Positions 6,467 to 45,121 of a DNA stretch of 64,000 nt are shown one piece after another. Source of the stretch: an uncultured Bacteroidales bacterium (GTDB lineage: Bacteria; Bacteroidota; Bacteroidia; Bacteroidales; UBA932); NCBI GenBank assembly GCA_900318015.1, contig ONJB01000021.1, positions 1 through 64,000 of the forward strand, read 5' to 3'. A program made the position numbers and the translations under genes. The number at the start of each line of letters is the position of its first letter. The stretch's first letter is position 1. The notes beneath the pieces were generated by a model. That model had not been told where the DNA came from. It did not search any database and saw nothing but the letters and a program-made list of their open reading frames with translations.

Positions 6467-8452
6467 TTATCTTTCCAGAATAAAGATGGTAAAGCACTGC
6501 GGCGGGACCGCCGCGGTGAGGGACTTGCCCTCGCCGGCGAAGGCGGCCTTGACAGGGGTGATGCGGTCGGGAACGTCCAGGGTATTGTCCTCATAGAGAA
6601 GCCCCGAAGTGAAGTCGATGCGTTCCACCGCCTTCACGATTTCCTTCTTCTTGAGGCCGTTGAACGCGAATTCCACGCTCTGCGGCTTTTCGGAGGTATT
6701 GATCACCTTCACATAGACCTTGTCCCCGTCCTTCACGGCGCTGGCGAAGAGGCCGTCCTGGCCTTCGGCGCCGGTGACGTTAACCCCATTCATCTTGAGG
6801 GTCAGCACGTTCTGGCCCTTGTACTCGCCGTACAGGTGCTGGACGTGCCAGCTGGCGGTCCGCATGGAACGGAGGTTGTCGAACCAGATGAGGTCCGGAC
6901 GCCACTGCCAGCCTTCGACATGGGCGAACAGCGGGGCGTAGGTGGCCATGTGCACGATGTCCGCGTTGCGCTCGATGGTGGTCATGAAGGCCGCTTCCAG
7001 GAGGGAGGCGTGGAAATGGTTGAATTTCCGGCCCGCACCATGGCACGCATACTCTCCGGCGAACACCTTCGGGCCCTTGCGGTCGTAATTGTCATAGCGG
7101 GCGCCCTGCGCGAGGAACCACTTCTCGGGACGGTAGAAGTGCTCGTCCACCAGGTCGGCGCCCAGACGCTTCATCTCGGGCCAGAGATAGTCGAACTGCT
7201 CGCCCTCGGAGTTCGGGCCGCTGGAACCGACGATCTTGATGTCCGGATACGCGGCGCGGATGGCCTGCACGAAAGGCTCCAGGTGCTCCGGATAGAGCGG
7301 ATCCCACTGCTCGTTGCCGATACCGATGTACTTGAGGTTGAACGGCGCCGGATGGCCCATGTCAGCGCGGACCTTGCCCCAGGTGGAGGTCACAGGGCCG
7401 TTCGCGAACTCGATGAGGTCCAGGGCGTCCTGGATGAAGGGCTGGAGCTCGTCCACCGGGCAATGGGCCGACAGGTCGTCGTTCTGGAACTGGCACGCCA
7501 GGCCGCAGCTCAGGATCGGAAGCGGTTCGCTGCCGATTTCCTCCGAAAGCTGGAAGAACTCGAAGAAGCCCAGGCCGTAGCTCTGGTAATAATCCGGGAA
7601 GAACCGGTGCGGGAAAGTGTACTCCCAGCGGTTCTCGTTGATGGGGCGATTCTCCACCGGGCCCACGGTGTTCTTCCAGTTATAGCGGGTCGCGAGGTCC
7701 GTTCCCTCCACGATGCAGCCGCCCGGGAAGCGGAAGATGCCGGGCTTGAGGTCCGCCAGGGCCTGCGCCAGGTCCTTCCGCATGCCGTTGCGATGGCCCA
7801 TCCAGGTGTCCGTCGGGAAGAGGGACACGTGCTCGAGGTCCACGGTCTTGCGGTCGCCGACGAGGAAGATGCGGAGGACCGCCTTCTCCAGCGTCGTATC
7901 GGGTTTCAGGATCACCTCATACTGCTTCCACTCCTTGCCGGCAATCTTCAGGGGCTCCTGGCAGACGAACTGGTCCTCGCCCATCGAGGCGGTGTTCACC
8001 AGTTCGATCCGCAGTTCCGAGGCGCCGCCGTCCGGGACGCGGGCCCAGACAGTGAAACGGTAGGTATCCCCGCCTTTCACGCCGATGCCGAAGAATCCTT
8101 CGTTGTCCAGGCCGGTCCACTTGTGGGGATGGCCGGGATCGACGAGGCGGACATAATGCGGGCAGCGCTCGAAGGGACCGTCATTCCAGACTTCCACGGT
8201 ACCGAAGGCTTTCCAGCCCTGGAGCGGGTCGTTCGGGAACTCGAAGGAACGGTTTTTCACGAGCTCGGCGTACAGGCCGCCGTCGGCCGCGTAGTTGATA
8301 TCCTCGAAGAAGATGCCGTACATCGTGGACTGGATGGGCGCTCCGACCTTCTTGAGGTCGATGTCCATACGGTGGACCTGGGCGGAAGCGGCGAGGCACA
8401 CCAGAAGGGCCGAAGCGGCGAGCAGGAAGCGGTTGCGAATCTTCATAATCAT
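6467..8452 (-). CDS. GH51 alpha-L-arabinofuranosidase, large form
   Basis: A secreted enzyme of about 660 residues; the signal peptide ends at SAQVHRMDID. Residues 20-200 include YGIFFEDINYAADGGLYAEL and a CBM4-like beta-sandwich (NRSFEFPNDPLQGW onward). The (beta/alpha)8 domain carries FRFPGGC, the acid/base Glu in YIGIGNEQWDPLY and the nucleophile Glu in VFAGEYACHG; a C-terminal beta-sandwich follows. GH51 enzymes release terminal arabinofuranose from arabinan and arabinoxylan. ATG at 8446 is an equally good start. Two TAnnTTTG-like boxes on the minus strand (8474-8481, 8484-8491) could drive it. It is divergent from the PUL 1 regulator, so both probably share control. Confidence 0.92.
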   Translation of the reverse strand: MIMKIRNRFLLAASALLVCLAASAQVHRMDIDLKKVGAPIQSTMYGIFFEDINYAADGGLYAELVKNRSFEFPNDPLQGWKAFGTVEVWNDGPFERCPHYVRLVDPGHPHKWTGLDNEGFFGIGVKGGDTYRFTVWARVPDGGASELRIELVNTASMGEDQFVCQEPLKIAGKEWKQYEVILKPDTTLEKAVLRIFLVGDRKTVDLEHVSLFPTDTWMGHRNGMRKDLAQALADLKPGIFRFPGGCIVEGTDLATRYNWKNTVGPVENRPINENRWEYTFPHRFFPDYYQSYGLGFFEFFQLSEEIGSEPLPILSCGLACQFQNDDLSAHCPVDELQPFIQDALDLIEFANGPVTSTWGKVRADMGHPAPFNLKYIGIGNEQWDPLYPEHLEPFVQAIRAAYPDIKIVGSSGPNSEGEQFDYLWPEMKRLGADLVDEHFYRPEKWFLAQGARYDNYDRKGPKVFAGEYACHGAGRKFNHFHASLLEAAFMTTIERNADIVHMATYAPLFAHVEGWQWRPDLIWFDNLRSMRTASWHVQHLYGEYKGQNVLTLKMNGVNVTGAEGQDGLFASAVKDGDKVYVKVINTSEKPQSVEFAFNGLKKKEIVKAVERIDFTSGLLYEDNTLDVPDRITPVKAAFAGEGKSLTAAVPPQCFTIFILER

Positions 8453-8505: not shown

Positions 8506-11448
8506 ATGAAAGGTGGACAAAAATACTTAAGAGGTGTAAAATTATCCAGCATCCTCGCCGCGCTTGTCCTTGGATCGGCGCTCTCCCCTGCCCGGGCGCA
8601 GGACCCGTTCGAGAACGACTATCTGAGGAGCACGCTCTCCATGGAGAACGGCCTCCCCTGCAACTTCATCGACGATGTCTGCCAGGACGACGCCGGTTTC
8701 CTGTGGCTGGCGACTTCCGGCGGGGGCCTGTGCCGGTTCGACGGATACGACCTCCTCACCTTCGGCGCCACTTCCGCCGTCCCCCTCAAGAGCAATTTCA
8801 TCCGCAATGTGTGCGAGGACCGCTTCCGCCGGCTCTGGATCGCCTCGGAAGGCGGGCTGGACCTCCTCGACCTCGGGACCCTGGACCGTCTGGACCTTCC
8901 GCACCCCACGCTTGAAGCGTATGCCGACCAGCTCTGTTCCTTCCTGACGCTGGACGCGGCCGGGAACCTGTGGTTCAAGACCGGGAAGACGCTGGCCTGT
9001 GTCTCCTTCGACGAGAAAGGCGGCGTCCGGGATGTGCTCGCGTTCACCCATGACGGGCTCTCGCCCGCCAATTTCGTCTTCGAGGACGTCGATGGGGACG
9101 GTACCGTCTGGGCGGGCCTCCAGGGCCGGTTGTACAAGATCGGTCCGGGACCGTCCGGCGCCCTGCAGGCCGAGCCGGTCCTGCCGGGCTTCCAGTACGG
9201 GGAACAGACCTACCTCTCCGACTTCCTGCCGGCCGGCCAGGGTATCTGGATCTCGACGGAGAACGGCCTGTATTTCGTCAACCGCCGGACCGGCGAATGG
9301 AAGCGGTACGCCCACGATCCCCGGAACCCGCGATCCCTGACCCAGAATTTCATCACGGGCCTCTCCCGGACGGGCGACGGAGAGACGGTCGCCGTCTCGC
9401 TGCACGGCCTGAACCTGTTCAATCCGGTCACCGACGACTTCGACCGGATCGGCAGCGAAGTCATCAACTGCATCCAAGTCCATGGAGACCAGATTCTCCT
9501 GGGCACGGAAACCACCGGACTCCTGACGTACATTCCCAAGCAGCTCGCCGTCAACAACTTCCAGTATAACGAGCAGGATCCGGCCTCCCTGGCCGCCGGG
9601 GCGGTGAACGCCGTCCTCCAGGAGCCGGACGGCCGGCTTTGGGTCGGGACGGTGGAAGGCGGCCTGAGCGTCCGGGAGCCGGAAAGCCAGGCTTTCAGCC
9701 ACCTCACCCGCGAGCGGGGCGGCCTGGGCCACAACAGCGTGAGCGAGTTCTGCCTCCTGCCCGAGGAACGGATGCTGGTCGGAACCTGGGGCGGCGGCAT
9801 CGACATGGTCTCCACCCGGAAGCCCTACCGGGTGCTGGAGCATCTCCTGCCGGGCGATTCCCGCCTGGACTTTATCAGTTCCCTGGACTATGACCCGGAC
9901 AGCGGCCTGCTCTGGATCGGATCCAACCGCGGGGTTTTCTTCTATGATTTTCCTACGCACACGCTGACGCCCGCCCTCGAAGAACAGGCCAGCGGATGCA
10001 TCGGCTCATGCCTGGACGCCTCCGGCCATCTCTGGATCGGCTGCCGGGAGGGCCTGTACGCCTTCGACCTGAAAGGGCGCACTGCTGACGGCCGTTTTCC
10101 CGCCACGCAGTATCCCTTCAAGCTGGACGTACCCGCATCCGGCGTCCGGGAAATGATCTGCTGCATCATCGAAGCCGCCGACGGAAGCCTCTGGCTGGGC
10201 AGCAACGGAGGAGGCGTGTACCATGGGATCCGGGCCGATGACGGAAGTCTCTCCTTCCATGGTTATTCCACCCGCGACGGCCTGTCCAACGACCGCGTCC
10301 GCGGACTGGCGGAAGACGCATCCGGACATATCTGGATCAGTACGGAACACGGCCTGAACGTCCTGGATCCCGCCAGCGGCCGCGTCACGCCGTATTTCAA
10401 GGAAGACGGACTGGCCAGCAACCAGTTCCATTGGAACAACGCCTGCCGGGGAACCGACGGCCTGCTCTATTTCGGCCAGGTGGAAGGGCTCTCCGCCATT
10501 GATCCGGCCCGGACGGTCGCCCGGACGATGGACGGTCCGCTCCGCCTGACGGACGTACGGATCGGCGACACGCACCTCCGCAACCCCTACCTGGAAAGTG
10601 TCCGGCTGCATGAACGGGACCGGAACATCCTCTTCCAGTTCTCCCTCCTGAGCCCGGCTGCCCGCCGCCAATACACCTACGAATACCGGTTGGAAGACTT
10701 CGACAAGGGCTGGACCCGCCTCTCGGACGACCGGCACGAAGCGGCTTACTCCACCTTGCCCAGCGGGGACTACCGTTTCGTCGTCCGGGCCATCCCCCGC
10801 AACGGCGGTCCGGAAAAGACCCTGTCCCTGCAGGTGAACGTCCGGCCGTATTTCTACAAGACCTGGTGGTTCATCCTCCTTCTGGCCGCCACCCTCGCCG
10901 CCGCCGCGTATGCCATCCTCACCTGGCGGACCCGGGCACTCGTCCGGCAGCAGGAACTGCTGCAACGGACGGTAGACGAACGGACCCGCGAGATCTCGGA
11001 GCAGAAAAAGCTCGTCGAGCAGAAGGCCGAGGAACTCGCCCGCCAGAATGTCGTCCTGCGCCACCAGAACGAGGAACTGGCCGGACGCCGGATCCTGGCC
11101 GCCCCGCAGGCGCAGCCGGAAGACCCGTTCGCGGACAAGGTCCTCCAGACGGTCCGTTCCCTGTACAAGGATCCGGACCTGGACGTCCCTGCCCTGTGCA
11201 GCGCGATGGGCATGAGCAAGACCCTCCTCAACAAGCGCATCCAGGAATCCTTCGGCCAGCCCGTCGCCCAGTTCATCCGGACCTACCGCCTGTCCGTCGC
11301 CCGGGAGATGCTCCGCACCAACCGGGAGAACAAGACGCTCAACATTTCCGAAATCGCGTACGAGGTCGGATTCAACGACCCGAAGTATTTCAGCCGCTGC
11401 TTTGCCAAGGAGTTCGGCTTCCCGCCCAGCAACCTGGTCGAGGACTAG
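8506..11448 (+). CDS. Membrane-anchored propeller/AraC regulator without kinase (PUL 1 regulator)
   Basis: A 980-residue protein. After a signal segment comes a periplasmic beta-propeller of Reg_prop repeats (repeated [39 protein letters not shown]) and a Y_Y_Y-type strand domain (about 705-775). One membrane helix lies at about 786-806 ([17 protein letters not shown]), then a coiled coil (808-860), then an AraC-type DNA-binding domain with both helix-turn-helix units (875-980, ending [20 protein letters not shown]). No HisKA, ATPase or receiver domain is present, unlike the regulators at 45122 and 63001. It probably senses an arabinan oligosaccharide and acts on PUL 1 directly, in the style of SusR. 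GTG at 8536 is a possible alternative start. Confidence 0.88.
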
Positions 11449-11536: not shown

Positions 11537-12592
11537 ATGGCACTGAAACATTTGACCGCCCTTTTCGGCTCCCTTTTCCTCGTTCTGGCCGCTTCCGCCC
11601 AGGATTCCCGCCGTCAACCGGTCTTCAATCCGCTCCAACCCGCCGTACACGATCCCGTCGCCATCCGCTGCGGAGACACCTGGTATCTGTTCAGCACGGG
11701 ATTCGGCATCAGCATCCTTTCTTCTCCCGACCTCAAATCCTGGGAACCCGCCGGAAGAGTCTTCGACACCCCGCCGCAGTGGGCCCTGGACACCGTCCCC
11801 GGCTACCATGGGCATACCTGGGCGCCGGATATCCTCTACCACGAGGGCACCTACTATCTGTACTACTCCTGCTCTTCCTTCGGGAAGAATACCTCGGCCA
11901 TCGGCGTCGCGACCAACCGCACCCTGGATCCGGATTCCCCGGATTACCGGTGGGAAGACCGGGGCTGCGTCGTCCGCTCCATCGCGGGCCGAGATAACTG
12001 GAACGCCATCGACCCGAACGTCTTCATCGACACGGACGGGACGGGCTGGATGAGCTTCGGCTCCTTCTGGAGCGGCATCAAGCTCGTCCGCCTGGACGCT
12101 ACCCTCACCCGCGTCGCGGAACCCCAGGAATGGTTCCCCCTCTGCCGCCGTCCGGAAGGAACGGCCGAGGACACCTCCGAGACCGACGACGCCATCAAGG
12201 CCGATCCCCGCGGCAAGGATTTCGATCCGGGCAACGGTGCGGTGGAAGCCCCGTTCATCGTCCGGCACGGAGACTGGTACTATCTGTTCGTCTCCTACGA
12301 CCTCTGCTGCAGGGGGCCGAAGAGTACATATAAAGTAGTGGTGGGCCGCTCGGACAAGGTCACCGGCCCCTATGTCGATGCCGCCGGCACGCCCCTGATG
12401 GAAGGCGGTGGGACCGTCGTCGTCAGCGGGAACGACCGCTACCCCGGCCTGGGCCACTGCGCCGTGGTCTCCACCGGCGAAGGCGAAAAGATGCTCCTGC
12501 ACGCCTACGACCGCGAAACCGGCTACAACGCCGTCCTCCTCACCCGGACGCTTGTCTGGGGCCGGGACGGCTGGCCTTCCATCCAGCTCTGA
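11537..12592 (+). CDS. GH43 arabinan endo-1,5-alpha-L-arabinanase-like enzyme
   Basis: A 351-residue secreted single-domain GH43 five-bladed propeller; the signal peptide ends at LAASAQ. The three acidic residues are visible: base Asp in AVHDPVAIRC, the pKa-modulating Asp in NAIDPNVFIDTDG and the acid Glu in GAVEAPFIVRHGDWYYLF. HTWAPDILYHEGTYYLYYS is typical of the endo-arabinanase branch. The paired Cys in DLCCRGPKSTYKVVVGRS also occurs in the related frameshifted enzyme at 31573. It probably cuts or trims the alpha-1,5 arabinan backbone. It is the first gene of the 11537-25223 operon, ahead of the three-repeat lipoprotein and SusCD. Confidence 0.9.
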   Translation: MALKHLTALFGSLFLVLAASAQDSRRQPVFNPLQPAVHDPVAIRCGDTWYLFSTGFGISILSSPDLKSWEPAGRVFDTPPQWALDTVPGYHGHTWAPDILYHEGTYYLYYSCSSFGKNTSAIGVATNRTLDPDSPDYRWEDRGCVVRSIAGRDNWNAIDPNVFIDTDGTGWMSFGSFWSGIKLVRLDATLTRVAEPQEWFPLCRRPEGTAEDTSETDDAIKADPRGKDFDPGNGAVEAPFIVRHGDWYYLFVSYDLCCRGPKSTYKVVVGRSDKVTGPYVDAAGTPLMEGGGTVVVSGNDRYPGLGHCAVVSTGEGEKMLLHAYDRETGYNAVLLTRTLVWGRDGWPSIQL

Positions 12593-12633
12593 ATTCATAG
12601 CAAACCTAATACAAATCAACCAACAACCACATT

Positions 12634-15066
12634 ATGAAAACCCGAGATTTGATGCTTAAAGCGATCTTCGCCACGGCCCTCACGGCCGCGGTGACGGTCG
12701 GCTGCACGGGCCTCGAGCCCTACACCATCGATGCTCCGGACGACCTTGCCGAGAAGATCGCCGCCTACAAGGCGGAGAAGGAAGCCGGCAAGAGCGACGA
12801 CTATGAGGAAATCGCCATCACGACCGCCATCGTGGGCGCGGAAGACAACACCTCTGGCTGGTGGACCGAATTCAGCCAGTACTTCAACGTTCCTTCCGGC
12901 AAGAAACTGTTCATCGAGTTCGAGAACTTCGGTTCCGGCGCAAACAACTGGAACAACTGGAACGTCTGCGTAGCCAACGGAAAAGAACGGGAAACCGAAG
13001 GCTATAGCGAGTATTTCGTCCTCCGCTCCGACTGGTACGGCTGGGGCAATGCCGACTACACCGGCTCCGTCATCGAATTCGACTACGGCGGCGGCGAAGT
13101 GAACTGGGACGAGTTCCGCGAGAAGATGCAGGGCGCCCACGTCACGATGAGCATCGACCACGCCCGCGCCGGCGCCGCCTACCTGGAGGTGCACAGCGTC
13201 GCCACGGACGGCTTCGACATCGTGGAGAAATACAACCAGGCCGTCTCCGCCACGGAGGACATCAACGTGTTCCTCATCGCGGACGGCAGCCATTTCAACA
13301 TGAAGAAGGCCTGGCTCGTTCCTTCCGAGATCGCTGAAATCCCGGATTTCAACGCCGAATCCATCTCCGTGACCGGCTACCCCGTCACCGTGCCCCTGGG
13401 CAACGAGGACTACTGGGGTGACGCCGTCGCCACCGTCACCTTCGAGGACGGCTTCACCACGACGGTCGCCAAGGAAGACCTGACCATCACGGAGCCCGAC
13501 ATGACCACGCTCGGCATGAAGACCGTGGCCTATACCTATAACCTCACCAAGCTCGGCAAGCCCGGCAAGGCCGTCCTCGGCTACTACAACTTCGAAGTGA
13601 CCGACCTCGCCTCCATCGCCGTGACGAAGGCCCCGGTCACCAGCACGTACTACCTCTACGACCAGGCCATGCCTTTCTTCACCCAGGGCCTCGAGGTCAC
13701 CGGCACGAAGGGTGACGGTTCCACCGTCGTCCTCGACAACGCCGCCCTCACCTTCGACCAGGTCCAGCCCGTCGCCGGCACGCAGGACATCGAGATCAGC
13801 TTCTCCGACGGCATTTCCACCTCCTTCCCGGTGAACGTGAAGATCGGGACCGAAGCCATCGGCCTGCCCGACTACACCAACGGCTGGTGGACCACCTTCC
13901 TGTCCGCCGACAAGCCGGTCGCTGCCGGTGAGAGCGTGACCGTCCACCTGTTCGTCTACTCCGACAACCTCGCGAACTGGCACAGCCCGTGCACCATCCT
14001 CCGCAAGGCCGACATGACCGAGTACGGCGTGGTCCGCATGGACAACTTCGGCTGGGGCGCCGGTTACGACGGCAACCCGAACCTCGTGCTCGAGAGTGAC
14101 TGGAACTTCGACACCTTCGCCGCGAACCAGAACATGTCCGCCGTCAGCATCACCGTCACCAACAACGGCGACAACACGGCCGACATCCGCTACAACGTCA
14201 CCTACGCCAACGGCGAGACCCACTTCCAGCAGTACAGCGGCATCACGGTGGACAGCGCCGACCTCCAGATGGGCATCGTCACCGAGGAATCCTACCTGAT
14301 CGTCCTCGAGTCCGCCGCCGTGGACGCCAAGTTGACCGGCATCGAGGCTTCCGCCGAGGCCTACCGGATCGGCGGCGCCAAGGGCCTGACCCTCTCCCCC
14401 GAAGGCGTGAAAGTGAATGCCCTCTATAGCGACGGCTCCAAACTCCCGCTGAAGACCAGCCAGTTCACGGTCGCTTTCGCCGATGACAAAGTGTTCTACG
14501 AAGGTACGCCCGGTACCGTCGCCAACGTGGCCACGGTGACCTACACCGACCCGGTGGGCGCCGTCTTCACCGCCCCTGTCAACCTGACGGTCAAAGCCAG
14601 CGAGCAGGCCGCCCAGGCCACCCCGGTGGGCGCCGAAGACTTCAGCAACGCCTGGTGGACCACCTTCTCCAACAACTGGAATGTCCCGGCCGGCACCGCC
14701 CAGGCCGTCTCCATGGCCGTCAAATCCGACAATGTCGCCAACTGGCACAGCCCGTGCGTCATCCTGCGGAAGGCCGACGGCACCGAGTACTGCGTCGTCC
14801 GCATGGACCACTTCGGCTGGGGCGGCAGCTTCGATGCCTCCATCAAGACCAGCAACTGGAACTGGGATACCTTCCTGGGCAATATCGACGGCTCCCAGGT
14901 GGACATCACCGTCGCCAATGACGGGAACGGCTCCGCCAGTATCCGCTACCATGTGGTGTATGCCAACGGCGAGGAGCACTTCCAGTTCTACGACGGCCTC
15001 GCGGTGGACTCCGCCGATGTCACCTTCGCCATCGTCACGGAAGAGTCCTACCTCATCTTCGACTAA
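12634..15066 (+). CDS. Three-repeat surface lipoprotein, putative glycan-binding protein
   Basis: An 810-residue lipoprotein; the lipobox is AAVTVGC with Cys at residue 23. No family is recognised. It has three copies of a module of about 140-150 residues, each opening with a Trp-Trp pair (W76-W77, W418-W419, W674-W675). Modules 2 and 3 share NWHSPC, ILRKAD, VVRMD, FGWG, RYxVxYANGExHFQ and IVTEESYLI; module 1 is divergent. Between them are Ig-like strands (about 240-320, 325-405, 568-655). The aromatic-rich repeats, lipid anchor and position directly before susC suggest a cell-surface arabinan-binding protein playing the SusE/SusF part. No catalytic motif is visible. It could alternatively be an uncharacterised lectin or enzyme-free scaffold. 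Confidence 0.7.
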   Translation: MKTRDLMLKAIFATALTAAVTVGCTGLEPYTIDAPDDLAEKIAAYKAEKEAGKSDDYEEIAITTAIVGAEDNTSGWWTEFSQYFNVPSGKKLFIEFENFGSGANNWNNWNVCVANGKERETEGYSEYFVLRSDWYGWGNADYTGSVIEFDYGGGEVNWDEFREKMQGAHVTMSIDHARAGAAYLEVHSVATDGFDIVEKYNQAVSATEDINVFLIADGSHFNMKKAWLVPSEIAEIPDFNAESISVTGYPVTVPLGNEDYWGDAVATVTFEDGFTTTVAKEDLTITEPDMTTLGMKTVAYTYNLTKLGKPGKAVLGYYNFEVTDLASIAVTKAPVTSTYYLYDQAMPFFTQGLEVTGTKGDGSTVVLDNAALTFDQVQPVAGTQDIEISFSDGISTSFPVNVKIGTEAIGLPDYTNGWWTTFLSADKPVAAGESVTVHLFVYSDNLANWHSPCTILRKADMTEYGVVRMDNFGWGAGYDGNPNLVLESDWNFDTFAANQNMSAVSITVTNNGDNTADIRYNVTYANGETHFQQYSGITVDSADLQMGIVTEESYLIVLESAAVDAKLTGIEASAEAYRIGGAKGLTLSPEGVKVNALYSDGSKLPLKTSQFTVAFADDKVFYEGTPGTVANVATVTYTDPVGAVFTAPVNLTVKASEQAAQATPVGAEDFSNAWWTTFSNNWNVPAGTAQAVSMAVKSDNVANWHSPCVILRKADGTEYCVVRMDHFGWGGSFDASIKTSNWNWDTFLGNIDGSQVDITVANDGNGSASIRYHVVYANGEEHFQFYDGLAVDSADVTFAIVTEESYLIFD

Positions 15067-15078
15067 CCTTAAGACCGA

Positions 15079-18000
15079 ATGAACATGAAAAAGATATTTG
15101 CAAGCATCGCCCTCTGCGGCGTCCTGGCCCTCGCTCCCGCCGCCTTCTCCGGCAGCCATGGCGGTTATGCGGCCCTTGCCCAGAACAACGTGACGGTCAG
15201 CGGTACCGTCGTGGACGAGAACGGTGAGCCCATCCTGGGCGCCGGCGTCGTGGTGAAGGGTACCACGACCGGCACCACCGCCGACCTGGACGGCGTCTTC
15301 TCCCTGACGGTTCCGGCCGGTTCCGTCCTCCAATTCATCTCCGTGGGCTTCGAGACCGTGGAGAAAACCGTGAACACGGGCGGCGACCTGGGCACCATCA
15401 CGATGCCCACCGAGCACACCGTCCTGGACCAGGTGGTCGTCATCGGTTACGGTTCCCAGAAGAAGGTGGACCTCACCGGTTCGGTCGCCATCGTCGATGC
15501 CGACGAGATGAAGAAGGTCTCCCACTCCAACATCTCCACGATGCTCGAGGGTAAGGTCGCCGGTGTCCAGATCACTTCCGACGGCCAGCCGGGCGCCGAC
15601 CCGTCCGTCCGCATCCGCGGTCTGGGCAGCTTCGGCAGCACCGCCCCGCTGTACGTCATCGACGGCGTGCCGATGGGAACCACCATCCGCGACTTCTCCC
15701 CGAACGACATCGAGACCATCCAGGTCCTCAAGGACGCTTCCGCGGCCGCCATCTACGGTTCCCGCGCGGCGAACGGCGTCGTGATCATCACCACCAAGGG
15801 CGGCAAGAAGAACCAGCCTATCATGGTGGACTACACCGGTTACGTGGGCGTGGACAAGATCCGCAAGAACGTGTACAAGGTCATGGACAGCGCCCAGTAC
15901 GGCGACTTCGTCCGGATGGCCTTCGACAACAGCGGCCTCGCCGTTCCCGGCGGCTATGATCCGGCCAGCAGCCTGTATGTGGACCCGAAGCAGGTGAACA
16001 CCGACTGGTTCGACGCCGTGTTCAAGACCGGCATCCGCCAGAACCACAACGTGAACCTGTCCGGCGGCGGTGAAAACAGCACCTTCAACATCGCCCTCGA
16101 CTACTTCAACCAGAAGGGCACGATGGTGGGCGCGGGTCCCAACTACGACCGTTTCACCGTGCGTGCGAACAACACGATGGACATCAAGTTCCTCAAGCTC
16201 CGCACCGGCCTCGTCTATTCCCACAGCGACCAGGACAGCATGTCCCTGTCCAACGCCAACGAATACGTGCAGGGTCTCTACGGCACCCAGTACCCGGTGA
16301 TGGCCTCCGCCCTGCTGATGCCCCCGTCCATCAAGGCTTATGATGAGAGCACCTGGTTCCTGGACCGCGACATCGCGGCCGCCGGCGAGTACTCCTACGA
16401 CTCCTGGGGCTTCGGCACCTACTATGACAATGTCCACGGCGACATCCGCATGACCAACCCGCTCCTGTACAACAACCTCCTGGAGCGCAACACCATCGTG
16501 GACCGCATCGTCGCCACCGGCAGCGCCACGGTCGACCTCCTGGACATGGTCGGCGCGAAGAACCAGAACCACAAGCTGGACTACACGCTGAACCTCTCCT
16601 ACAGCAAGACCAACTGCAAGGACTTCACCTTCGTGCCGTCCTTCATCCAGAGTACCACCAACTACCTGTCCAAGAGCAACGAGCGCCTCTCCCAGGGCTA
16701 CCGCGCCTACTCCGACTTCCTGGTGGAGAACTACCTCACCTATGACGGCAAGTTCGGCAACCACCACCTCAACCTCGTGGGCGGCATGACCTTCGAGCGC
16801 GAGCTCACCTACAACCTCTCCGCCTGGGGCAACAACATGCCCGAGCCGTACTACCTGCAGATCGGCAACGCCACCGACCGCGACGCCAACTCCTCCCAGT
16901 TCGAGCACGTCCTGGCCTCCTACATCGGCCGACTCACCTACGACTACGACAGCCGCTACCTCTTCCAGGCGACGGTCCGCCGCGACGGCAGCTCCCGCCT
17001 GTCCACCGGCAACCACTGGGACTGGTTCCCTTCCGCCTCCATCGGCTGGAGAATCGACAAGGAGCCCTTCTTCACCGTGGATCCCCAGCTGGTGAGCCTC
17101 CTGAAGCTCCGCGCCAGCTACGGCGTGCTGGGTAACGAGAACATCGGCGAATACCAGTACATGGACACCATGGCCCGCGGAAACTACACCTACAGCTTCG
17201 GCGGCAACAAGGTCACCGGTTCCTCCATCTCCAACTACGTGAACACCGCCATCCATTGGGAGAAGAAGAAGACCCTGGACATCGGTCTGGACTACGCCAT
17301 GTTCGGCGGCGCCTTCGAACTGAACGCCGACTACTACAACGCCCTCTCCGAGGACCTGCTGTACAGCGTGCCCGTCCCGGCCGAGGCCGGCGCGACGAAC
17401 GAGTCCGTGACGATGAACGCCGCCTCCATGCGGAACACCGGTATCGAGCTTTCCGCCTCCTGGCGCAACTACCAGCACGATTTCAAGTATGAGTTCTCCG
17501 GAAACGTCACCTTCCCGAAGAACACCGTGGTCTCCCTGGGACCTTCCGGCGAAGCCCGTAACGACGCGTTCACCCGCACCGAACTCGGCGCCGAGGTCGG
17601 CCGCTTCTACGGCTATGTCTATGAGGGAATCTTCCAGAGCCAGGAGGAGATCGACAACCGCATCAACGACAAGGGCCAGTATGTGGTCCAGGCCGGCGCC
17701 CAGCCCGGCGACGTCGCCTACAAGGACATCAACAACGACGGCCAGATCACAGCCGACGACCAGACCTTCATCGGCAGCGGCATGTCCAAGGTCCAGTTCG
17801 GCCTGAGCGCCCGCTTCGAGTACAAGGGCTTCGACCTGAGCGTCTCCACCTTCGGCGCCGCGGGCTACCAGCTCCTCGACTTCGTGGACATGACCCTCCG
17901 CAGCTCCTATGGCATGACGAACCGCAGCGTGGACCTCATGAAGGCCTGGACGCCCCAGAATCCTTCCACGACGATCCCCCGGGTGTACTACAAGGCCACC

Positions 18001-18279
18001 GGCACCATCACCAACGACATGTTCAGCTCCCGCTACCTCCAGAACGGTTCCTACTGGAAGATCGCCAACGTCGAGTTCGGCTACAACTTCCCGGAAGGCC
18101 TGTTCAACGGCTTCATCCGCGGCGCCCGCATCTATGCGAGCGGCCAGAACCTGCTGACCATCAGCAAGTATCGTGGCTACAACATCGACTTCGCCGGCGG
18201 CGCTTTCACCCCGGGCTACAACTATTGCTCCTATCCGGCTCCGATTACCGCGATGCTGGGTGTGAAACTCTCCTTCTAA
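15079..18279 (+). CDS. SusC/RagA-type TonB-dependent outer-membrane transporter (PUL 1)
   Basis: A 1066-residue outer-membrane protein. After the signal peptide comes the carboxypeptidase-like domain (VSGTVVDENGEPILGAGVVV), then the TonB-box/plug region (VVVIGYGSQKKVDLTGSV, RIRGLGSFGSTAPLYVIDG) and a long beta-barrel ending in hydrophobic-Phe (GVKLSF). With SusD it imports oligosaccharides. ATG at 15085 (MKKIFAS) is an equally plausible start. It follows the three-repeat lipoprotein by 12 bases and precedes susD by about 19. Codon use is strongly biased to C-ending codons, consistent with high expression. Confidence 0.95.
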   Translation: MNMKKIFASIALCGVLALAPAAFSGSHGGYAALAQNNVTVSGTVVDENGEPILGAGVVVKGTTTGTTADLDGVFSLTVPAGSVLQFISVGFETVEKTVNTGGDLGTITMPTEHTVLDQVVVIGYGSQKKVDLTGSVAIVDADEMKKVSHSNISTMLEGKVAGVQITSDGQPGADPSVRIRGLGSFGSTAPLYVIDGVPMGTTIRDFSPNDIETIQVLKDASAAAIYGSRAANGVVIITTKGGKKNQPIMVDYTGYVGVDKIRKNVYKVMDSAQYGDFVRMAFDNSGLAVPGGYDPASSLYVDPKQVNTDWFDAVFKTGIRQNHNVNLSGGGENSTFNIALDYFNQKGTMVGAGPNYDRFTVRANNTMDIKFLKLRTGLVYSHSDQDSMSLSNANEYVQGLYGTQYPVMASALLMPPSIKAYDESTWFLDRDIAAAGEYSYDSWGFGTYYDNVHGDIRMTNPLLYNNLLERNTIVDRIVATGSATVDLLDMVGAKNQNHKLDYTLNLSYSKTNCKDFTFVPSFIQSTTNYLSKSNERLSQGYRAYSDFLVENYLTYDGKFGNHHLNLVGGMTFERELTYNLSAWGNNMPEPYYLQIGNATDRDANSSQFEHVLASYIGRLTYDYDSRYLFQATVRRDGSSRLSTGNHWDWFPSASIGWRIDKEPFFTVDPQLVSLLKLRASYGVLGNENIGEYQYMDTMARGNYTYSFGGNKVTGSSISNYVNTAIHWEKKKTLDIGLDYAMFGGAFELNADYYNALSEDLLYSVPVPAEAGATNESVTMNAASMRNTGIELSASWRNYQHDFKYEFSGNVTFPKNTVVSLGPSGEARNDAFTRTELGAEVGRFYGYVYEGIFQSQEEIDNRINDKGQYVVQAGAQPGDVAYKDINNDGQITADDQTFIGSGMSKVQFGLSARFEYKGFDLSVSTFGAAGYQLLDFVDMTLRSSYGMTNRSVDLMKAWTPQNPSTTIPRVYYKATGTITNDMFSSRYLQNGSYWKIANVEFGYNFPEGLFNGFIRGARIYASGQNLLTISKYRGYNIDFAGGAFTPGYNYCSYPAPITAMLGVKLSF

Positions 18280-18298
18280 GATGATGTCCGACCTGATA

Positions 18299-20083
18299 AT
18301 GAACAAGCATATGAAAAAGATATCCATCGTCCTGGCATCCCTTGTCATCCTCGGTTCCGCAGCTTCCTGCGACAAGTATCTGGACGTCAAGAACCCGAAC
18401 AACCAGACCACCTTCGACTTCGGTTTCACCGAGTCCGACCTCGAGGAGGCGCTCGTAGCCTGCTACAACCGCATCCGCCTGGAGGGCACCTTCGCCCGCG
18501 TGGGCTACACCCTGGACGCCGTCCGCGGCGACGAGGTGTGGAACGCCTCCCAGCAGTGGTACCTCCCGTACGACAACCTCAATTCCACCGGCCAGATCGA
18601 TATCGGCGACCAGTGGCCCTGGCGTGACAACTACCACGTGGTGAACCGCTGCAACCTCGTCCTCTCCCGCATCGAGGAGTCCGGCCTGACCGGTACGGGC
18701 ATCGACCGGATCAAGGGACAGGCCCTGTTCCTGCGGGCGCTCGCCTACTACACCCTCGCCACCTACTACCAGGAGGTGCCGCTCTTCATCGAGTACAGCC
18801 AGTATGACTCCATCGAGACTATGTATGCCGAGAACGTGGCCCAGGACGTGGTCTTCGACCAGATCGAGACCGACCTGAACGAGGCGCTCCAGCTCCTTCC
18901 GACCCGCGAAGCGGGCGGCGAGTGGGCCAAGGGCCGGGCAACCAAGGGTGCCGCCGCCGGCTACCTCGCCCGGGTCTACATGTTCCGTCACAACTACGCC
19001 GATGCCCTGACGCTCCTCAAGGACCTCATCAACGGCACCTATGGTCACTATGAGCTGACCAAGGACTACGGCGACAACTTCCGCGAGGGCGCGAACTACG
19101 AGAACAACGCCGAAAGCCTCTTCGAGGTCCAGTTCCTGGACTACGGGATGGGCGGTTCCGACGAGGAATGGACCCCGGTGAACATCTCTTCCAACGCCAC
19201 CCAGGGCCATGCCGTGGAATCCAACTACGGTTCCCAGGAGCTCGGCAGCTGGGGTGACCTCGCCGCTTCCCCCTGGCTGTACAACCTGTTCAAGGCCGAG
19301 CGCTGCACCGACGGCACCCTGGATCCGCGCCTGTACTGGACCATCGTCACCTACGAGCCTGAGTACTCCGCCTACACCGGCACCACCAACGCCGGCTATC
19401 CGAACGGCGGCGACCCGCGCTCCAACGTCGTGTACCAGCAGGAAATCACCCGCACCCCGCGCTGCAACAACACCCAGGGCGGCATGTCCATCGCCAAGTT
19501 CACCAATGCCCGCAACAACATCTACGCGAGCATCACCACCGGCCTGCACTGCGGCGTGAACCTCCGCCTGATGCGCTTCAGCGACGTCCTCCTCCGGGCG
19601 GCCGAGTGCATCAACGAGATCGACGGTCCGACGGCCGAGGCCATCGGCTACATCAACGAGGTGCGCAACCGTGCCGGCCTCGCCGACCTCCCGACCACCG
19701 GCTGGACGGCCGACAAGCTCTTCGAACAGATCGCCAACGTCGAACGTCCGAAGGAGTTCGGCTGCGAGAACGGCCGCGGCATCGACCTGATCCGCTGGGG
19801 ATTCTTCTATGACGCCGGCCGCCTGGCCCAGATCAGCCAGCACAGCTGCTTCATGCTGGACACCGCGGAAGGCTCCGAAGTTTCCACCCAGGAACTCACC
19901 ACCGCCACCGCTTCCGACTATTCCTACAAGTACTTCACGGCCGGTCACGAGTATTTCCCGATCTTCCAGGGAACCCGCAACGCCAACAAGAACATCCACG
20001 GGAATTCCGCGAACAACAACTACGACAACGGTCCGGACTGGACGGCCAAGTACGGCCCCGTGCATCCGGTCACGGCCCTGTAG
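18299..20083 (+). CDS. SusD/RagB-type surface glycan-binding lipoprotein (PUL 1)
   Basis: About 594 residues; the lipobox is LGSAASC before DKYLDVKNPN. The helical TPR scaffold (FLRALAYYTLATYYQEVPLF, LRAAECINEIDGPTAEAIGYINEVRNRAGL) and the C-terminal NFYFNP-like region (FPIFQGTRNANKNIHG) are typical of SusD. It caps the SusC channel and binds the glycan. ATG at 18281 or 18311 are alternative starts; 18299 is chosen as a compromise giving a normal signal peptide. A perfect 15-bp hairpin lies 25 bases behind its stop codon. Confidence 0.93.
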   Translation: MNKHMKKISIVLASLVILGSAASCDKYLDVKNPNNQTTFDFGFTESDLEEALVACYNRIRLEGTFARVGYTLDAVRGDEVWNASQQWYLPYDNLNSTGQIDIGDQWPWRDNYHVVNRCNLVLSRIEESGLTGTGIDRIKGQALFLRALAYYTLATYYQEVPLFIEYSQYDSIETMYAENVAQDVVFDQIETDLNEALQLLPTREAGGEWAKGRATKGAAAGYLARVYMFRHNYADALTLLKDLINGTYGHYELTKDYGDNFREGANYENNAESLFEVQFLDYGMGGSDEEWTPVNISSNATQGHAVESNYGSQELGSWGDLAASPWLYNLFKAERCTDGTLDPRLYWTIVTYEPEYSAYTGTTNAGYPNGGDPRSNVVYQQEITRTPRCNNTQGGMSIAKFTNARNNIYASITTGLHCGVNLRLMRFSDVLLRAAECINEIDGPTAEAIGYINEVRNRAGLADLPTTGWTADKLFEQIANVERPKEFGCENGRGIDLIRWGFFYDAGRLAQISQHSCFMLDTAEGSEVSTQELTTATASDYSYKYFTAGHEYFPIFQGTRNANKNIHGNSANNNYDNGPDWTAKYGPVHPVTAL

Positions 20084-20151: not shown

Positions 20152-21960
20152 ATGAAGTTTACCCGCATCGCAATGGCAGCCCTGTGCGCCGCCCTGCTCG
20201 TCGCCGTCGGCTGTGAGAAGGATCCGGCCGAAGGGACCGGCATCCATACCAAACCCGTCGACGACGGCGGTGGTGACAGCGGTGGCGGCGGTGGTGGCGG
20301 CGGTTCGCAAGAGAGCGGCTATACCCCCATCACCCCCACCAGCACCGGCAACTGGAGCGGCAAGGCGGCCGAGCCGACCGTCACCGACGGCAAGACGATC
20401 CCCGCCTTCAACGACGACTACCGGTCCGTCGCCGGCTGGTCTTTCAAGGACCAGTGGAACCTCGCGAATGTCCACGACCCGTCCATCGCCTACTACAAGG
20501 GCTACTATTACATGTTCAACACAGACGCTTCGTTCGGCAACGAGCACCTGAAGGGTCCGGACCACATCCACTTCCCGGGCAAGCGCTCCAAGGACCTCGT
20601 GAACTGGTCCTACGTTCCCGGTCCGTTCTCCAAGAACGAACCCGCGTGGGTCTATACCCGGCTCAACGAGATCCGCAAGCGGATGGGCCTCGACGCCATC
20701 GGCCGGAGCAGCCTCTACGACAACTGCGGCTACTGGGCGCCCGTCATCCGGACGGTCACCGTGAACGGCGAAGAGCGGCTCCGCATGTACTACTGCGTGG
20801 TCGTGAACAACTACATCGGCTCCGGCAAGGCGCTTTCCGAGCCCTTTGACGGCACCTGGTCCGAGCGCGCCTTCATCGGCATGGCCGAGACCACCTCGCC
20901 CGAGACCGGCAACTGGACGGACTACGGCTTCGTGACCTGTTCCTCTTCCGACAAGGGCAAGGACGGATACGCCCGCCCGGACGTCAACAACTGGGACGCC
21001 TACTTCTATTACAACGCCATCGACCCGACCTATGTCGTGGCGGACGGCAGGCATTATCTCATCCATGGTTCCTGGCACAGCGGCTTCGCGCTGCTGGAGG
21101 TGGACCCGAAGACGGGAATGCCCCTGAAGGACCTGGGCGATCCCTGGGCCGACAACGCGAGCGGCCTCACGGCCCGCTTCGGCACCCGCATCGGCGCCCG
21201 CAACACGACCCGCTGGCAGGGTTCCGAGGCGCCGGAGATCATCTACAAGGACGGATACTTCTACCTGTTCATGGCCTATGACGGCCTGGATATCCCGTAC
21301 AACACCCGCGTCGTCCGTGCCGAGAAGATCGACGGTCCGTACTACGACATCACCGGACGCAACTTCTCCAACGCCCGCGGGGACTGCTACCCGATCGTCA
21401 CCCATCCCTACAAGTTCTCCAAGGGATCCGGCTGGGTGGGCATCTCCCACTGCGCCGTGTTCCAGCAGGACGGCACCGGCGACTGGTTCTACGCTTCCCA
21501 GGGCCGTTTCCCGACGGATGCGGGCGGCAATGCGCCGAACGCCGTGATGATGGGCCATGTCCGCCGCATCGTCTGGTGCCCCTCCGCCGCCGACGCCTTG
21601 GACGACCTGTGGCCGATCTCCCTCCCGGAGCGCTACGCCGGTCTCACCAGGACGCCCGTCAAGGCCGATGAGATCGCCGGTACCTGGGAGCACATCAACC
21701 TCAAATACGACTACGGGAAACAGGACACCGCCGCCAAACTCACGCTGAGCGCGGACGGGAAGATATCCGGCGCCCTCACCGGCACCTGGAGCTTCGACGA
21801 GGCGAAACAGTTCCTCACGCTGACCGCAGGCGGGAAGACCGTCGTCGTCGTGGTTTCCCACGAAGTGGACTGGGAAGCGTCTCCCCGTCAGGAGACGGTC
21901 GTGTATGCAGGAACCGAAAAGGCCCTGAACGCCACCTGGTGGGGAAAGAAGGTCCAGTGA
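20152..21960 (+). CDS. GH43 (subfamily 4-like) surface endo-arabinanase with poly-Gly linker
   Basis: A 602-residue lipoprotein with Cys at residue 21 (VAVGC), followed by a flexible linker rich in Gly (about 38-55, eight Gly in a row). The GH43 propeller shows the base Asp in NVHDPSIAYYKGYYYMF, YWAPVI, the second Asp in NAIDPTYVV and the acid Glu in GSEAPEIIYKDGYFYLF. The last 95 residues (WEHINLKYDYG onward) form a small beta domain like that behind subfamily-4 arabinanases. The long tether and lipid anchor point to the cell surface, where it would cut arabinan before SusCD import. It follows the susD hairpin by 12 bases. Confidence 0.9.
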   Translation: MKFTRIAMAALCAALLVAVGCEKDPAEGTGIHTKPVDDGGGDSGGGGGGGGSQESGYTPITPTSTGNWSGKAAEPTVTDGKTIPAFNDDYRSVAGWSFKDQWNLANVHDPSIAYYKGYYYMFNTDASFGNEHLKGPDHIHFPGKRSKDLVNWSYVPGPFSKNEPAWVYTRLNEIRKRMGLDAIGRSSLYDNCGYWAPVIRTVTVNGEERLRMYYCVVVNNYIGSGKALSEPFDGTWSERAFIGMAETTSPETGNWTDYGFVTCSSSDKGKDGYARPDVNNWDAYFYYNAIDPTYVVADGRHYLIHGSWHSGFALLEVDPKTGMPLKDLGDPWADNASGLTARFGTRIGARNTTRWQGSEAPEIIYKDGYFYLFMAYDGLDIPYNTRVVRAEKIDGPYYDITGRNFSNARGDCYPIVTHPYKFSKGSGWVGISHCAVFQQDGTGDWFYASQGRFPTDAGGNAPNAVMMGHVRRIVWCPSAADALDDLWPISLPERYAGLTRTPVKADEIAGTWEHINLKYDYGKQDTAAKLTLSADGKISGALTGTWSFDEAKQFLTLTAGGKTVVVVVSHEVDWEASPRQETVVYAGTEKALNATWWGKKVQ

Positions 21961-22066: not shown

Positions 22067-23611
22067 ATGATTATGATAAAGAAGACATTGACCCTCATCG
22101 CGGTGCTTGCCGCCGCCCTGACCTCCGCTGCGCAAGTCAAGGTTTCCGTCCACGAGACGGCGAAGGACCAGCCGGTCATCCCGGCCGAGATCTACGGACA
22201 GTTCTCCGAACACCTCGGAAAGTGCATCTACGAAGGTATCTGGGTGGGCAAGGATTCCTCCATCCCGAACGTGAACGGCTACCGCACGGACGTGCTGGAA
22301 GCCTTCCGGGCCCTGAAAGTGCCCGTGCTCCGCTGGCCGGGCGGCTGCTTTGGCGACGAGTACCACTGGATGGACGGCATCGGCCCGCAGGAAAACCGCA
22401 AGAAGCTCGTGAACAACAACTGGGGCAGCACCGTGGAGGACAACTCCTTCGGCACCCATGAGTTCCTGAACCTCTGCGAGATGCTGGGCATCGAGCCCTA
22501 CATCAGCGGCAACGTGGGTTCCGGCACCGTCGAGGAACTGGCCAAGTGGGTCGAATACATGACCGCCAAGGAAGGCTCGATGGCCGAGCTCCGCGCCAAG
22601 AACGGCCGCAAGGAGCCCTGGAAGGTGAAGTACCTGGGCGTGGGCAACGAAACCTGGGGCTGCGGCGGCGACATGACGGCGGACTATTACGCCGATGTCT
22701 ATAAGCGCTACGCCCTCTACGCCCGCAACTACAACGGCAACCGCATCTTCAAGGTCGCCTGCGGCGCCTCCGACTACGACTACAACTGGACGAAGGTCAT
22801 GATGCAGAAGGCCGCGTCCAAGATGGACGGCCTCTCCCTGCACTACTACACCTGCAAGGGCTGGACGGGCAGCAAGGGTTCCGCCACGCAGTTCACCCCG
22901 GAAGAGTACTACAACGTCCTCGCGAAGACCTGCGAGATCGAAGAGGTCATCAAGAACCACTTCGCCATCATGGACGCCTATGATCCCGAGCGCCGCGTCG
23001 CCCTCCTCCTGGACGAATGGGGCACCTGGTTCGACGTGGAGCCCGGCACCAACCCGGGCTGGCTGTTCCAGCAGAACACCATGCGGGATGCGATGGTCGC
23101 GGCCCTGAACCTGAACATTTTCCAGAAGTACACCGAGCGCCTGAAGATGGCGAACATCGCCCAGATCGTGAACGTCCTGCAGGCCATGGTCCTCACCGAC
23201 GGCGACAAGATGGTCCTCACCCCGACCTACCACGTCTTCCGGATGTTCAATGTCCACCAGAATGCGACGTATGTCCCTTCGGATTACAGCACCGGCAACA
23301 TCGTCTCCGCCGAGGGCCGGATCATGGACGACTTCAGCGCCTGCGTCTCCCGCGACGCCGTCGGCAAGCTCCATGTCTCCCTGGCGAACCCGTACCTGGA
23401 CAAGCCCGTCACCGTGGAACTCGCCTTCGACCAGCTGAAGCCGAAGACCGTCACCGGTGAGATCCTGAAGGCCGACAAGATCAACGCGTACAACGAGTTC
23501 GGCAAGGCGCCGGCCGTCGCTCCCGTGGCCTTCACGGGCGCGAAAGCCTCCGGAAAGGGGGTGAAACTCACCCTGCCCGCCGCTTCCGTCGTCGTTCTTG
23601 AAATCCAGTAA
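22067..23611 (+). CDS. GH51 alpha-L-arabinofuranosidase, compact form
   Basis: A 514-residue enzyme with a signal peptide ending SAAQ, so periplasmic. Motifs are [33 protein letters not shown], the acid/base Glu in [13 protein letters not shown] and the nucleophile Glu in [10 protein letters not shown]. The C-terminal beta-sandwich follows ([16 protein letters not shown]). It is the classical bacterial GH51 type acting on short arabino-oligosaccharides and lacks the N-terminal carbohydrate-binding sandwich of the gene at 6467. ATG at 22073 is an alternative start. It lies 5 bases before the next GH43 gene. Confidence 0.93.
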
Positions 23612-27949: not shown

Positions 27950-29041
<1,092 letters not shown>

Positions 29042-29044
29042 ATT

Positions 29045-30568: not shown

Positions 30569-30589
30569 GATTCTGAGCGACTTACATGA

Positions 30590-30625
30590 AGAGAGGTGCA
30601 CCCGGCGGTGCACCTCTCTTTCGTT
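30590..30625. terminator. Terminator between convergent PUL 1 and PUL 2
   Basis: AGAGAGGTGCAC (30590-30601) pairs perfectly with GTGCACCTCTCT (30608-30619), followed by TTCGTTAAAAC on the plus strand. It lies between the ends of the carboxylesterase gene and the leftward esterase gene and may serve both strands. Confidence 0.8.
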
Positions 30626-30642
30626 AAAACGTTGTAAAACAG

Positions 30643-31569
30643 TTACTTGGCCATGTACTTCTCCGCCTTGACGCGGTTCAGGAAGGCGACCATCGCGGAG
30701 AGGGTCTCTTCCGTGTACATGTTCATGCCGTGGCCGCCGCCCTCCACCATGTGGAGTTCACTGTCCACGCGGGCGTCCTGCAGCAGGCCGTAGAAGTGCG
30801 GGGCCTGGCAGCTGGGGACCACGTTGTCCGCCGTGCCGTGGAAGATGCACACGGGCGGGTCGTCCGGGTAGGTCGTGGCGTTCAGATACTTGAAGGCTTC
30901 TTCGTTCCCCTTGAAGGAGAAGCCCATCACGGCCTCCTCGGGACCATGGTTCCAGGTGTCTTCCTCCGCGCCGCAGCTCATGTAGTTCAGGTCCACGGGA
31001 CCGGACCAGTCGCAGGCCGCGTCGACCGCGCTGGAGAACTGCAGGTTGCCGCCCACGCTGCCTTCCAGCTGGGGCTGGTTGCCGGACGTGGCGGCAAGCG
31101 AAGCCAGATGGCCGCCGGAGGAGAAGCCCGAGACCGCCACGAAGGTCGGGTCGAACTTGTATTTCGCGGCGTTGGCCTTGACGAAGCGGATCACGCCCTT
31201 GATGTCGTGGATCTGGGCCGGGAACTTGGCGTCCTGGGAAGAACGGTGGTTCGGGGTGACCACGGCGTAGCCCGCATCCAGCAGGGCGTTCACGATGGTG
31301 CCGAGGTCCGCCATCCCCTTGGAATTGTTGGAGAACCAGGCGCTGCCATAGATATGGACCACCACGGGATAGGTGTCCTTCTCCACCTTCGGGAGATAGA
31401 TGTCCAGCTTGTGATACACCTGGCCGTCACCGGCATAGTCCACGTCGGCGATCTTCTGGGAGCAACGGACGTCCACCTTGGGCATCTGGAAACCGCCGAA
31501 GCCCGTCGGCTGCGCGAACAGACCGAGGGCTCCGAGGGTAAAAGTAAGGGACATAAGAAGTCTTTTCAT
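30643..31569 (-). CDS. Secreted alpha/beta-hydrolase esterase (Aes / BD-FAE-like)
   Basis: A 308-residue secreted hydrolase (signal end GLFAQ). It has the HGG-like oxyanion segment VVVHIYGSAWFSNNSKG, NHRSSQDAKFPAQIHDIKGVIRFVKANA, the nucleophile Ser in VAVSGFSSGGHLASL, the Asp in IFHGTADNVVPSC and the His in VEGGGHGMNMY. This is the carboxylesterase group that includes the bifunctional acetyl-xylan/feruloyl esterases of gut Bacteroidales. It is the last gene of the leftward PUL 2 operon, three bases behind the GH43-ricin gene. Confidence 0.85.
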   Translation of the reverse strand: MKRLLMSLTFTLGALGLFAQPTGFGGFQMPKVDVRCSQKIADVDYAGDGQVYHKLDIYLPKVEKDTYPVVVHIYGSAWFSNNSKGMADLGTIVNALLDAGYAVVTPNHRSSQDAKFPAQIHDIKGVIRFVKANAAKYKFDPTFVAVSGFSSGGHLASLAATSGNQPQLEGSVGGNLQFSSAVDAACDWSGPVDLNYMSCGAEEDTWNHGPEEAVMGFSFKGNEEAFKYLNATTYPDDPPVCIFHGTADNVVPSCQAPHFYGLLQDARVDSELHMVEGGGHGMNMYTEETLSAMVAFLNRVKAEKYMAK

Positions 31570-36841: not shown

Positions 36842-41721
<4,880 letters not shown>

Positions 41722-41736
41722 AGTGTCAATTAAGGG

Positions 41737-44883: not shown

Positions 44884-44947
44884 AAAAGCGTTGATTTGGT
44901 TGGTTAGATGTTTATGGTTAAACAGTTTTGTGCTATGCAGCCGGTCA

Positions 44948-45094: not shown

Positions 45095-45121
45095 CTACCT
45101 TGCATCGTCAAAGAACGAATA

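Follow-up and report, generated by a model that had tools for sequence, protein, structure and literature searches.

Which plant fibres the Bacteroidales of the gut and the rumen can seize is decided in part by surface glycan-binding proteins (SGBPs), many of which contain no recognised binding module. This raises a question about a lipoprotein gene at positions 12634–15066 (+) of a 64,000-nucleotide stretch (hereafter the window) of an uncultured Bacteroidales bacterium (contig ONJB01000021.1, GenBank assembly GCA_900318015.1): what does its product bind, and by means of which of its domains? The initial annotation regarded the protein as an SGBP with a repeated, unclassified module representing a candidate new carbohydrate-binding module (CBM) family, a proposal which the arabinan-type polysaccharide utilisation locus (PUL) around the gene and the negative family searches would support. 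In the current study, we assign a probability of approximately 75% to the reading that this protein is a multivalent SGBP for arabinan capture and that its modules, here termed WW modules after the tryptophan pair in each, constitute an undescribed CBM family of Bacteroidota SGBPs and pectin side-chain enzymes. Arabinan is a pectin side chain that the modules very probably grip, and its capture would allow the products of neighbouring genes to cut and import it.

A lipoprotein with three related modules

The open reading frame (ORF) specifies 810 amino acids (aa), and its stop codon, which ends at 15066, is separated by 12 intergenic bases from the ATG of a susC-like gene at 15079, in agreement with the position directly before susC given at the outset. 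The N-terminus is of the lipoprotein type, with a signal peptide (12634–12705, +) reaching to a lipobox cysteine (Cys24) that is kept in 31/31 aligned proteins, thereby confirming the previously proposed lipid anchor. It is followed by a linker (12706–12810, +), in which the full-length model predicts a helix at residues 38–51 (low confidence there), and by the domain series M1, two immunoglobulin (Ig)-like domains, M2, one Ig-like domain and M3, as deduced from two stretches of Pfam family Big_3 and the strands of the model. On the same strand, M1 spans approximately residues 60–232 (12811–13329), Ig-like domain 1 residues 236–324 (13339–13605; best Big_3 stretch 263–303), Ig-like domain 2 residues 325–403 (13606–13842; model and Ig comparison), M2 residues 404–561 (13843–14316), Ig-like domain 3 (Ig3) residues 562–659 (14317–14610; Ig comparison) and M3 residues 661–810 (14614–15063), the modules being delimited by alignment and tree and, for M3, also by the model. 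The Ig-like part is matched by Big_3 with an E-value (E) of 1.7e-5 and 25.4 bits (cut-off 21.2). Ig-like domains do lie between the modules, as the initial annotation had it, but M1 and M2 are separated by two of them rather than one.

The WW pairs, which start at residues 76, 418 and 674, and the kinship of the three modules of about 150 aa had likewise been read from the sequence, and both were corroborated: Smith-Waterman scores of 127 (M1–M2), 177 (M1–M3) and 444 (M2–M3) lie far above the best of 500 shuffles each (57, 66 and 59, respectively), with BLASTP identities of 25%, 27% and 58%. The segments said to be common to all three require revision, as only GWG is found in M1, M2 and M3, while NWHSPC, ILRKAD and HFQ are confined to M2 and M3; M1 represents a divergent subtype and possesses the motif NNWNNWN. 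Across 129 modules from 66 proteins, conservation is concentrated in Arg723 (129/129), Asp725 (128/129), Gly666 (127/129) and Trp729 (126/129), and an aromatic residue occupies each of positions 674 and 704 in 128 of the 129, being Trp in 103 at either position.

A tree of 102 modules, rooted at the midpoint for drawing and including some long-branch rows whose placement is unsure, is split with support 100/99 into a C-type side, which includes M2 and M3, and an N-type side, on which M1 is joined by the modules borne by enzymes and by both modules of the proteins described below as scaffold B (one exception, the first module of L140, being placed on the C side). M3 clusters with the C-terminal modules of four proteins, L024, L025, L026 and L028 (support 100/97), and M2 joins L005 weakly (88/36). 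Ig3 is 49–62% identical to the second Ig-like domain of the same four proteins, and at E 1e-3 it matched, among the proteins L001–L033, those of the window type and these four and no others. An origin of M3 by internal tandem duplication of M2 is ruled out by this grouping and by the Ig3 match. Since M3 and Ig3 both match the same four proteins, the third module is deduced to have arrived as an Ig-plus-module unit common to another SGBP lineage.

Known families did not account for the modules. In Pfam, up to E 1, the protein matched Big_3 and five families below cut-off, no CBM being among them; NCBIfam returned one match below cut-off (E 0.11) and no carbohydrate-binding family; and neither database gave a SusE or SusF family up to E 1. 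Over 31 relatives, NCBIfam yielded an MiiA motif in 9/31 (lowest E 5e-4) plus two single matches, both weak, again without a CBM. Against PDB sequences, phmmer produced a single match (E 0.12) and a profile of 59 modules none up to E 10. A known CBM, a known enzyme or a protein composed of Ig-like domains only may consequently be set aside for these modules, and the claim that no recognised carbohydrate-binding family is present, on which the proposal of a new one had been made to depend, survives in Pfam, NCBIfam and PDB sequences. No paper on the WW module was found in a search of open-licence literature, where a module that has no name is difficult to locate by text queries.

AlphaFold2, applied to the 59-module alignment, predicted a fold of mostly strands with two short helices (mean predicted local distance difference test score, pLDDT, 96.4; predicted template modelling score, pTM, 0.90). 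Foldseek found no PDB match to this model with E up to 0.001, its best weak matches including beta-sandwiches such as the galectin-like MIC1 (2k2s; probability 1.00, TMq 0.47, E 0.013), SPRY and a polysaccharide lyase of family PL14. The full-length model (pLDDT 83.7) has a pTM of only 0.41, and the relative placement of the domains is therefore not predicted; in a fold search its whole-length TM was too low for use, while 80–83 columns matched the Bacteroides cell-surface proteins 4fd0 and 4fdw (probability 1.00). Three matches in a viral library fell just below E 0.001, with TMq ≤0.40; they concern phage or unnamed proteins and were not used.

Modules within enzymes and in exchange with LamG

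Stretches read from part of the module-bearing genomes yielded 74 non-redundant module proteins, of which 55 contain two modules, 11 one and eight three. Those joined to enzymes are of particular relevance, since fusion to an enzyme is the usual route by which new carbohydrate-binding families are recognised. In two genomes of one genus, a single open frame encodes a glycoside hydrolase (GH) of family 43 with the architecture GH43, GH43_C, aBig_2 and, near the C-terminus, one WW module (L080, L084). Two genomes of another genus (L088, L129) possess GH43, GH43_C and a C-terminal WW module, likewise in one open frame, and the closest solved relatives of the L088 enzyme are GH43 enzymes named endo-arabinanase. 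In one genome, a GH53 catalytic domain is followed, in a single open frame, by WW, LamG_3 and WW (L132). The WW module is thus found as a discrete module inside carbohydrate-active enzymes of families GH43 and GH53. As a side observation, an open frame at L047 775–1263, next to the GH43-WW gene, contains short tandem peptide repeats and probably reflects a DNA tandem repeat.

A second line of evidence is the exchange of WW modules with laminin G-like (LamG) modules, which was observed in two scaffolds and which, together with the enzyme fusions, adds support that was not available to the initial annotation. Scaffold A has the order WW-Ig-Ig-WW; in L031 the C-terminal module is replaced to give WW-Ig-Ig-LamG, and in L043 (genome G055) both positions are taken by LamG, Pfam detecting two Laminin_G_3 stretches and no WW module being found. 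The second scaffold was reached through BT0365, an SGBP of Bacteroides thetaiotaomicron, by means of the 31-base stretch of its promoter that contains the AraR site (PMC4666351). This stretch is present exactly in 1/158 genomes of genus g61 and with two mismatches in two more. L186, the gene that follows the exact site, encodes 769 aa with three Laminin_G_3 stretches, and no WW match was obtained for L186, L187 or L188 even at E 10, so that BT0365 as a WW protein is ruled out for these relatives.

Scaffold B accordingly occurs as LamG-LamG-LamG (L186, BT0365-type) and as LamG-WW-WW, the two WW modules occupying the places of LamG 2 and LamG 3 of L186. All 12 two-WW proteins that were compared share the N-terminal part of L186 (30–41% identity over 277–347 aa), and one N-terminal Laminin_G_3 was recovered in nine of the ten that were scanned with Pfam (L034, L035, L041, L137, L175, L176, L180, L181 and L182; L139 and L141 lay outside the scan); the tenth, L083, is assigned by BLAST to the LamG-WW-WW group, yet Pfam gives no LamG at E 0.01. 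The C-terminal LamG modules of L031 and L043 are 30–35% identical to LamG 2 and 3 of L186, while the N-terminal LamG of L043 shows only 15% identity to LamG 1 of the set and is not shown as of BT0365 type. In profile comparison by hhalign, WW against 11 LamG modules gave a probability of 0.2% and E 0.25, within the range of five column-shuffled controls (0.23–0.85), as against 99.9% and E 4e-35 between N-type and C-type WW. Two modules that are unrelated in sequence thus fill the same slots in two scaffolds, for which the simplest reason would be that they perform the same job.

An arabinan-type locus and the readings of the module

The genes around the SGBP gene point to the substrate. A GH43 gene (11537–12592, +), 41 intergenic bases upstream, has endo-1,5-arabinanases as its closest solved relatives (1gyd, E 9e-101); downstream, the susC-like TonB-dependent transporter gene (15079–18279, +) and a susD-like lipoprotein gene (18281–20083, +), both identified by Pfam and NCBIfam, are followed by a GH43 plus GH43_C gene (about 20152–21960, +) whose closest solved relatives are endo-arabinanases (2x8f, E 2.9e-21), and by a GH51-type alpha-L-arabinofuranosidase-like gene (22067–23611, +; Pfam and a further search). 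A second alpha-L-arabinofuranosidase-like gene, with a CBM_4_9 (Pfam), is located at 6467–8452 (−), and more GH43 genes occur downstream in the window. Because the flanking GH43s are close to endo-arabinanases, and by virtue of its gene content, this is predicted to be an arabinan locus.

In the mechanism that we propose, the lipid anchor and the Ig-like domains would hold out from the cell surface the three beta-rich modules, N-type M1 and C-type M2 and M3, whose conserved aromatic and polar residues would bind arabinan, i.e. alpha-1,5-linked arabinofuranose with branches. Several sites per molecule would confer avidity and keep the polymer at the cell surface, where the GH43 endo-arabinanases may cut it while it is held; the cut arabinan would then be passed on to SusD/SusC and imported, and enzymes of GH51 and GH43 would subsequently free arabinose. 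A more far-reaching proposal, on which we consider the odds to be even, is that WW modules form a new family of CBMs directed at pectic side chains (arabinan, besides galactan-linked variants), that WW and the sequence-unrelated LamG modules are interchangeable cassettes in gut Bacteroidales, and that the N-type/C-type pair is kept in an Ig scaffold because the two read different features of arabinan, in which case the window protein would be a heterovalent receptor that owes its second C-type reader to recombination with a different lineage of SGBPs.

The best-described counterpart is the B. thetaiotaomicron arabinan locus BT0348–BT0369, which is reported to include the SGBP BT0365, the endo-arabinanases BT0360 and BT0367 and two SusC/D pairs (PMC8002723); arabinan activates BT0365 to BT0360 together (PMC5061871), and the BT0365 gene precedes the susC-like BT0364 (PMC5061871, PMC8002723). 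The comparison was made via L186, the relative adjoining the published promoter site. Like the window protein, BT0365 is a lipoprotein of an arabinan PUL whose gene lies before a susC-like gene (as seen in L186), and in other genomes WW modules occupy its module slots 2 and 3. The BT0365-type protein differs in having three Laminin_G_3 and no WW module, whereas the window protein has an Ig scaffold that starts with M1 and lacks the N-terminal LamG part; a BT0365-type query gave no BLAST match to the window protein at E 0.01. The position before susC, which the initial annotation had presented as peculiar, is not novel: 62 of the 74 module proteins have susC or susD encoded no more than 500 bases away on their own strand, 46 of them preceding susC and 16 following susD, and the gene order of L186 is the same.

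SusE and SusF, the SGBPs of the starch system, are lipid-anchored proteins with an Ig-like domain and several binding modules, encoded together with susC and susD. The window protein resembles them in its lipid anchor, Ig-like domains, multiple modules and association with a susC/susD pair, and is distinguished by the lack of a SusE/SusF family match, by a gene position before susC rather than directly after susD, as for susE and the 16 relatives above, and by its ligand, presumably arabinan. A Segatella copri DSM18205 PUL provides a further parallel: its order is GH43_4, SGBP-B, SusD, SusC, with GH43_5 and GH51 near, and expression of the first four is described as arabinan-induced (PMC11784079). 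The WW-bearing loci L082 and L142 (genus g184) have the same order, susC-susD-SGBP-GH43-GH43, the likeness being one of gene order; S. copri has a GH51 near, whereas the two arabinofuranosidases of the window find none by BLAST in the L082 and L142 stretches. CBM112, a beta-mannan-specific, beta-sandwich-like module of Bacteroidota PULs, is comparable in that it occurs both in enzymes (GH26, GH5 and carbohydrate esterase family CE7) and in putative Ig-bearing SGBPs (PMC13357471). WW modules accompany GH43 and GH53 instead, the two being set apart here by description only. Its report indicates that new CBM families from Bacteroidota PULs are a known sort of discovery (PMC13357471).

It appears unlikely that the WW modules of such an SGBP recognise another pectic or hemicellulosic epitope, for instance arabinoxylan, a chain decorated with feruloyl groups, or side chains made of galactan or arabinogalactan. 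The two modules on the L132 GH53 galactanase would fit this, as would the esterases and the GH43 with CBM_6 in the window, but the GH43s flanking the SGBP-susC-susD block resemble endo-arabinanases, the module is carried by the L088 GH43 and the similar L129, and the C-terminal LamG that takes its place in L031 and L043 resembles LamG 2 and 3 of the BT0365-type SGBP. We consider it quite unlikely that WW is an extremely diverged LamG or ConA-like domain and no new fold family, a possibility that would be compatible with arabinan binding; the beta-rich predicted fold with two short helices, the weak Foldseek matches to beta-sandwiches and the slot shared with LamG speak for it, yet the hhalign comparison gave no profile signal beyond that of the shuffled controls, so that descent from LamG finds no support at the profile level. 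Very unlikely, in our estimation, is a structural or protein-docking role, in which the modules act as spacers or as an interface with SusCD or surface enzymes and bind no glycan: it could explain the absence of a known CBM match and the six large module proteins without a recognised enzyme (below), but would sit poorly with the presence of the modules on enzymes from two GH families that cut polysaccharides, with their exchange for LamG modules of lectin type, with the conservation of their aromatic and polar residues, and with a spacer function already supplied by the Ig-like domains.

Several points nevertheless weigh against arabinan capture by WW modules. Binding by the modules is itself something we infer from sequence, their model has no PDB fold match at the threshold given above, and the low full-length pTM leaves the domain arrangement unpredicted. 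The L080 and L084 enzymes are putative arabinanases by Pfam architecture, and the fusion in the L132 galactanase suggests a ligand that may differ between members of the WW family. Esterases, further GH43 genes and a GH43 with CBM_6 downstream in the window may also be compatible with arabinoxylan or with feruloylated arabinan. Finally, neither susC nor susD adjoins the genes of 12/74 module proteins, six of which are large (935–1999 aa; L126, L127, L128, L130, L131 and L133) and without a recognised enzyme, and genome G025 has WW modules without a close susC.

Should arabinan capture by the WW modules be true, the known CBM families would be extended by one that serves arabinan and further side chains of rhamnogalacturonan I. 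The module and its enzyme fusions provide a handle for annotating arabinan receptors, the WW set offers a ready module panel for binding assays, and the shared slots amount to an experiment set up by nature, two modules unrelated in sequence being placed in the same receptor slot.

Occurrence of relatives and other features of the window

WW modules were met only in Bacteroidota in the searches of this analysis, and the 35 related loci found all belong to this phylum, to judge by their titles. The module profile matched 2/395 genomes of a phylum sample (both from the order of the window) and 16/393 of an order sample, the window's own genome being included in each; within family f59 it matched 31/301 with an E limit of 0.01, two of these (G816, G983) being marginal, and within genus g61 25/119. 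The three-module arrangement of the window is shared by L002, L003 and L004, the other four three-module proteins (L040, L084, L138, L140) being arranged differently. Two of the large proteins, L127 (1801–7800) and L128 (61–4320), are very large and combine InlB B-repeats (Flg_new_2) with one WW module near the C-terminus.

Gene-context counts were obtained with a custom ORF caller and best BLAST matches, for which reason some gene starts could be misplaced, and relatives that are nearly identical were each counted. A GH43 best-matching the GH43 plus GH43_C gene of the window is present in 26/35 related loci; the nine without it comprise six end-cut stretches (L003, L012, L016, L021, L022, L028) and three that are not cut (L034, L035, L036). 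A close susC (E up to 1e-200) occurs in 8/295 genomes of the order, the window's own included. Of the other seven, five carry WW modules, G055 has the related SGBP with LamG modules described above, and G223 (susC 44% identical) showed no WW among the matches listed. No paper on an arabinan locus of vulgatus was returned by a literature search.

Upstream of the locus, a gene at 8506–11448 (+) encodes a 980-aa protein resembling a hybrid two-component system, with Reg_prop, Y_Y_Y and an AraC-type helix-turn-helix (HTH) and without a histidine-kinase or receiver match in Pfam; it is possible that it acts as a one-component propeller sensor-regulator. The best-matching regulators in most related loci measure 956–1098 aa (exceptions being L022, which is split, and L027 and L030, which are longer and more distant), and unsplit regulators of scaffold B loci 1420–1460 aa. 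A full hybrid two-component regulator (45092–49021; HisKA, HATPase_c, receiver, HTH) lies beside a second susC/susD pair (39910–44979).

An antisense ORF opposite the SGBP gene and susC (12616–18429, 1937 aa) was judged an artefact, a promoter and terminator scan gave nothing exceeding shuffles, and a plasmid search returned no match. At 51596–60010, six ORFs, including two overlapping pairs and not all necessarily genes, had no Pfam match up to E 0.001. Between both susC/susD pairs, several esterases (Esterase, COesterase, BD-FAE, SASA) lie at 27968–31569 and 36845–39818, and are likely to act on feruloylated or acetylated substrates.

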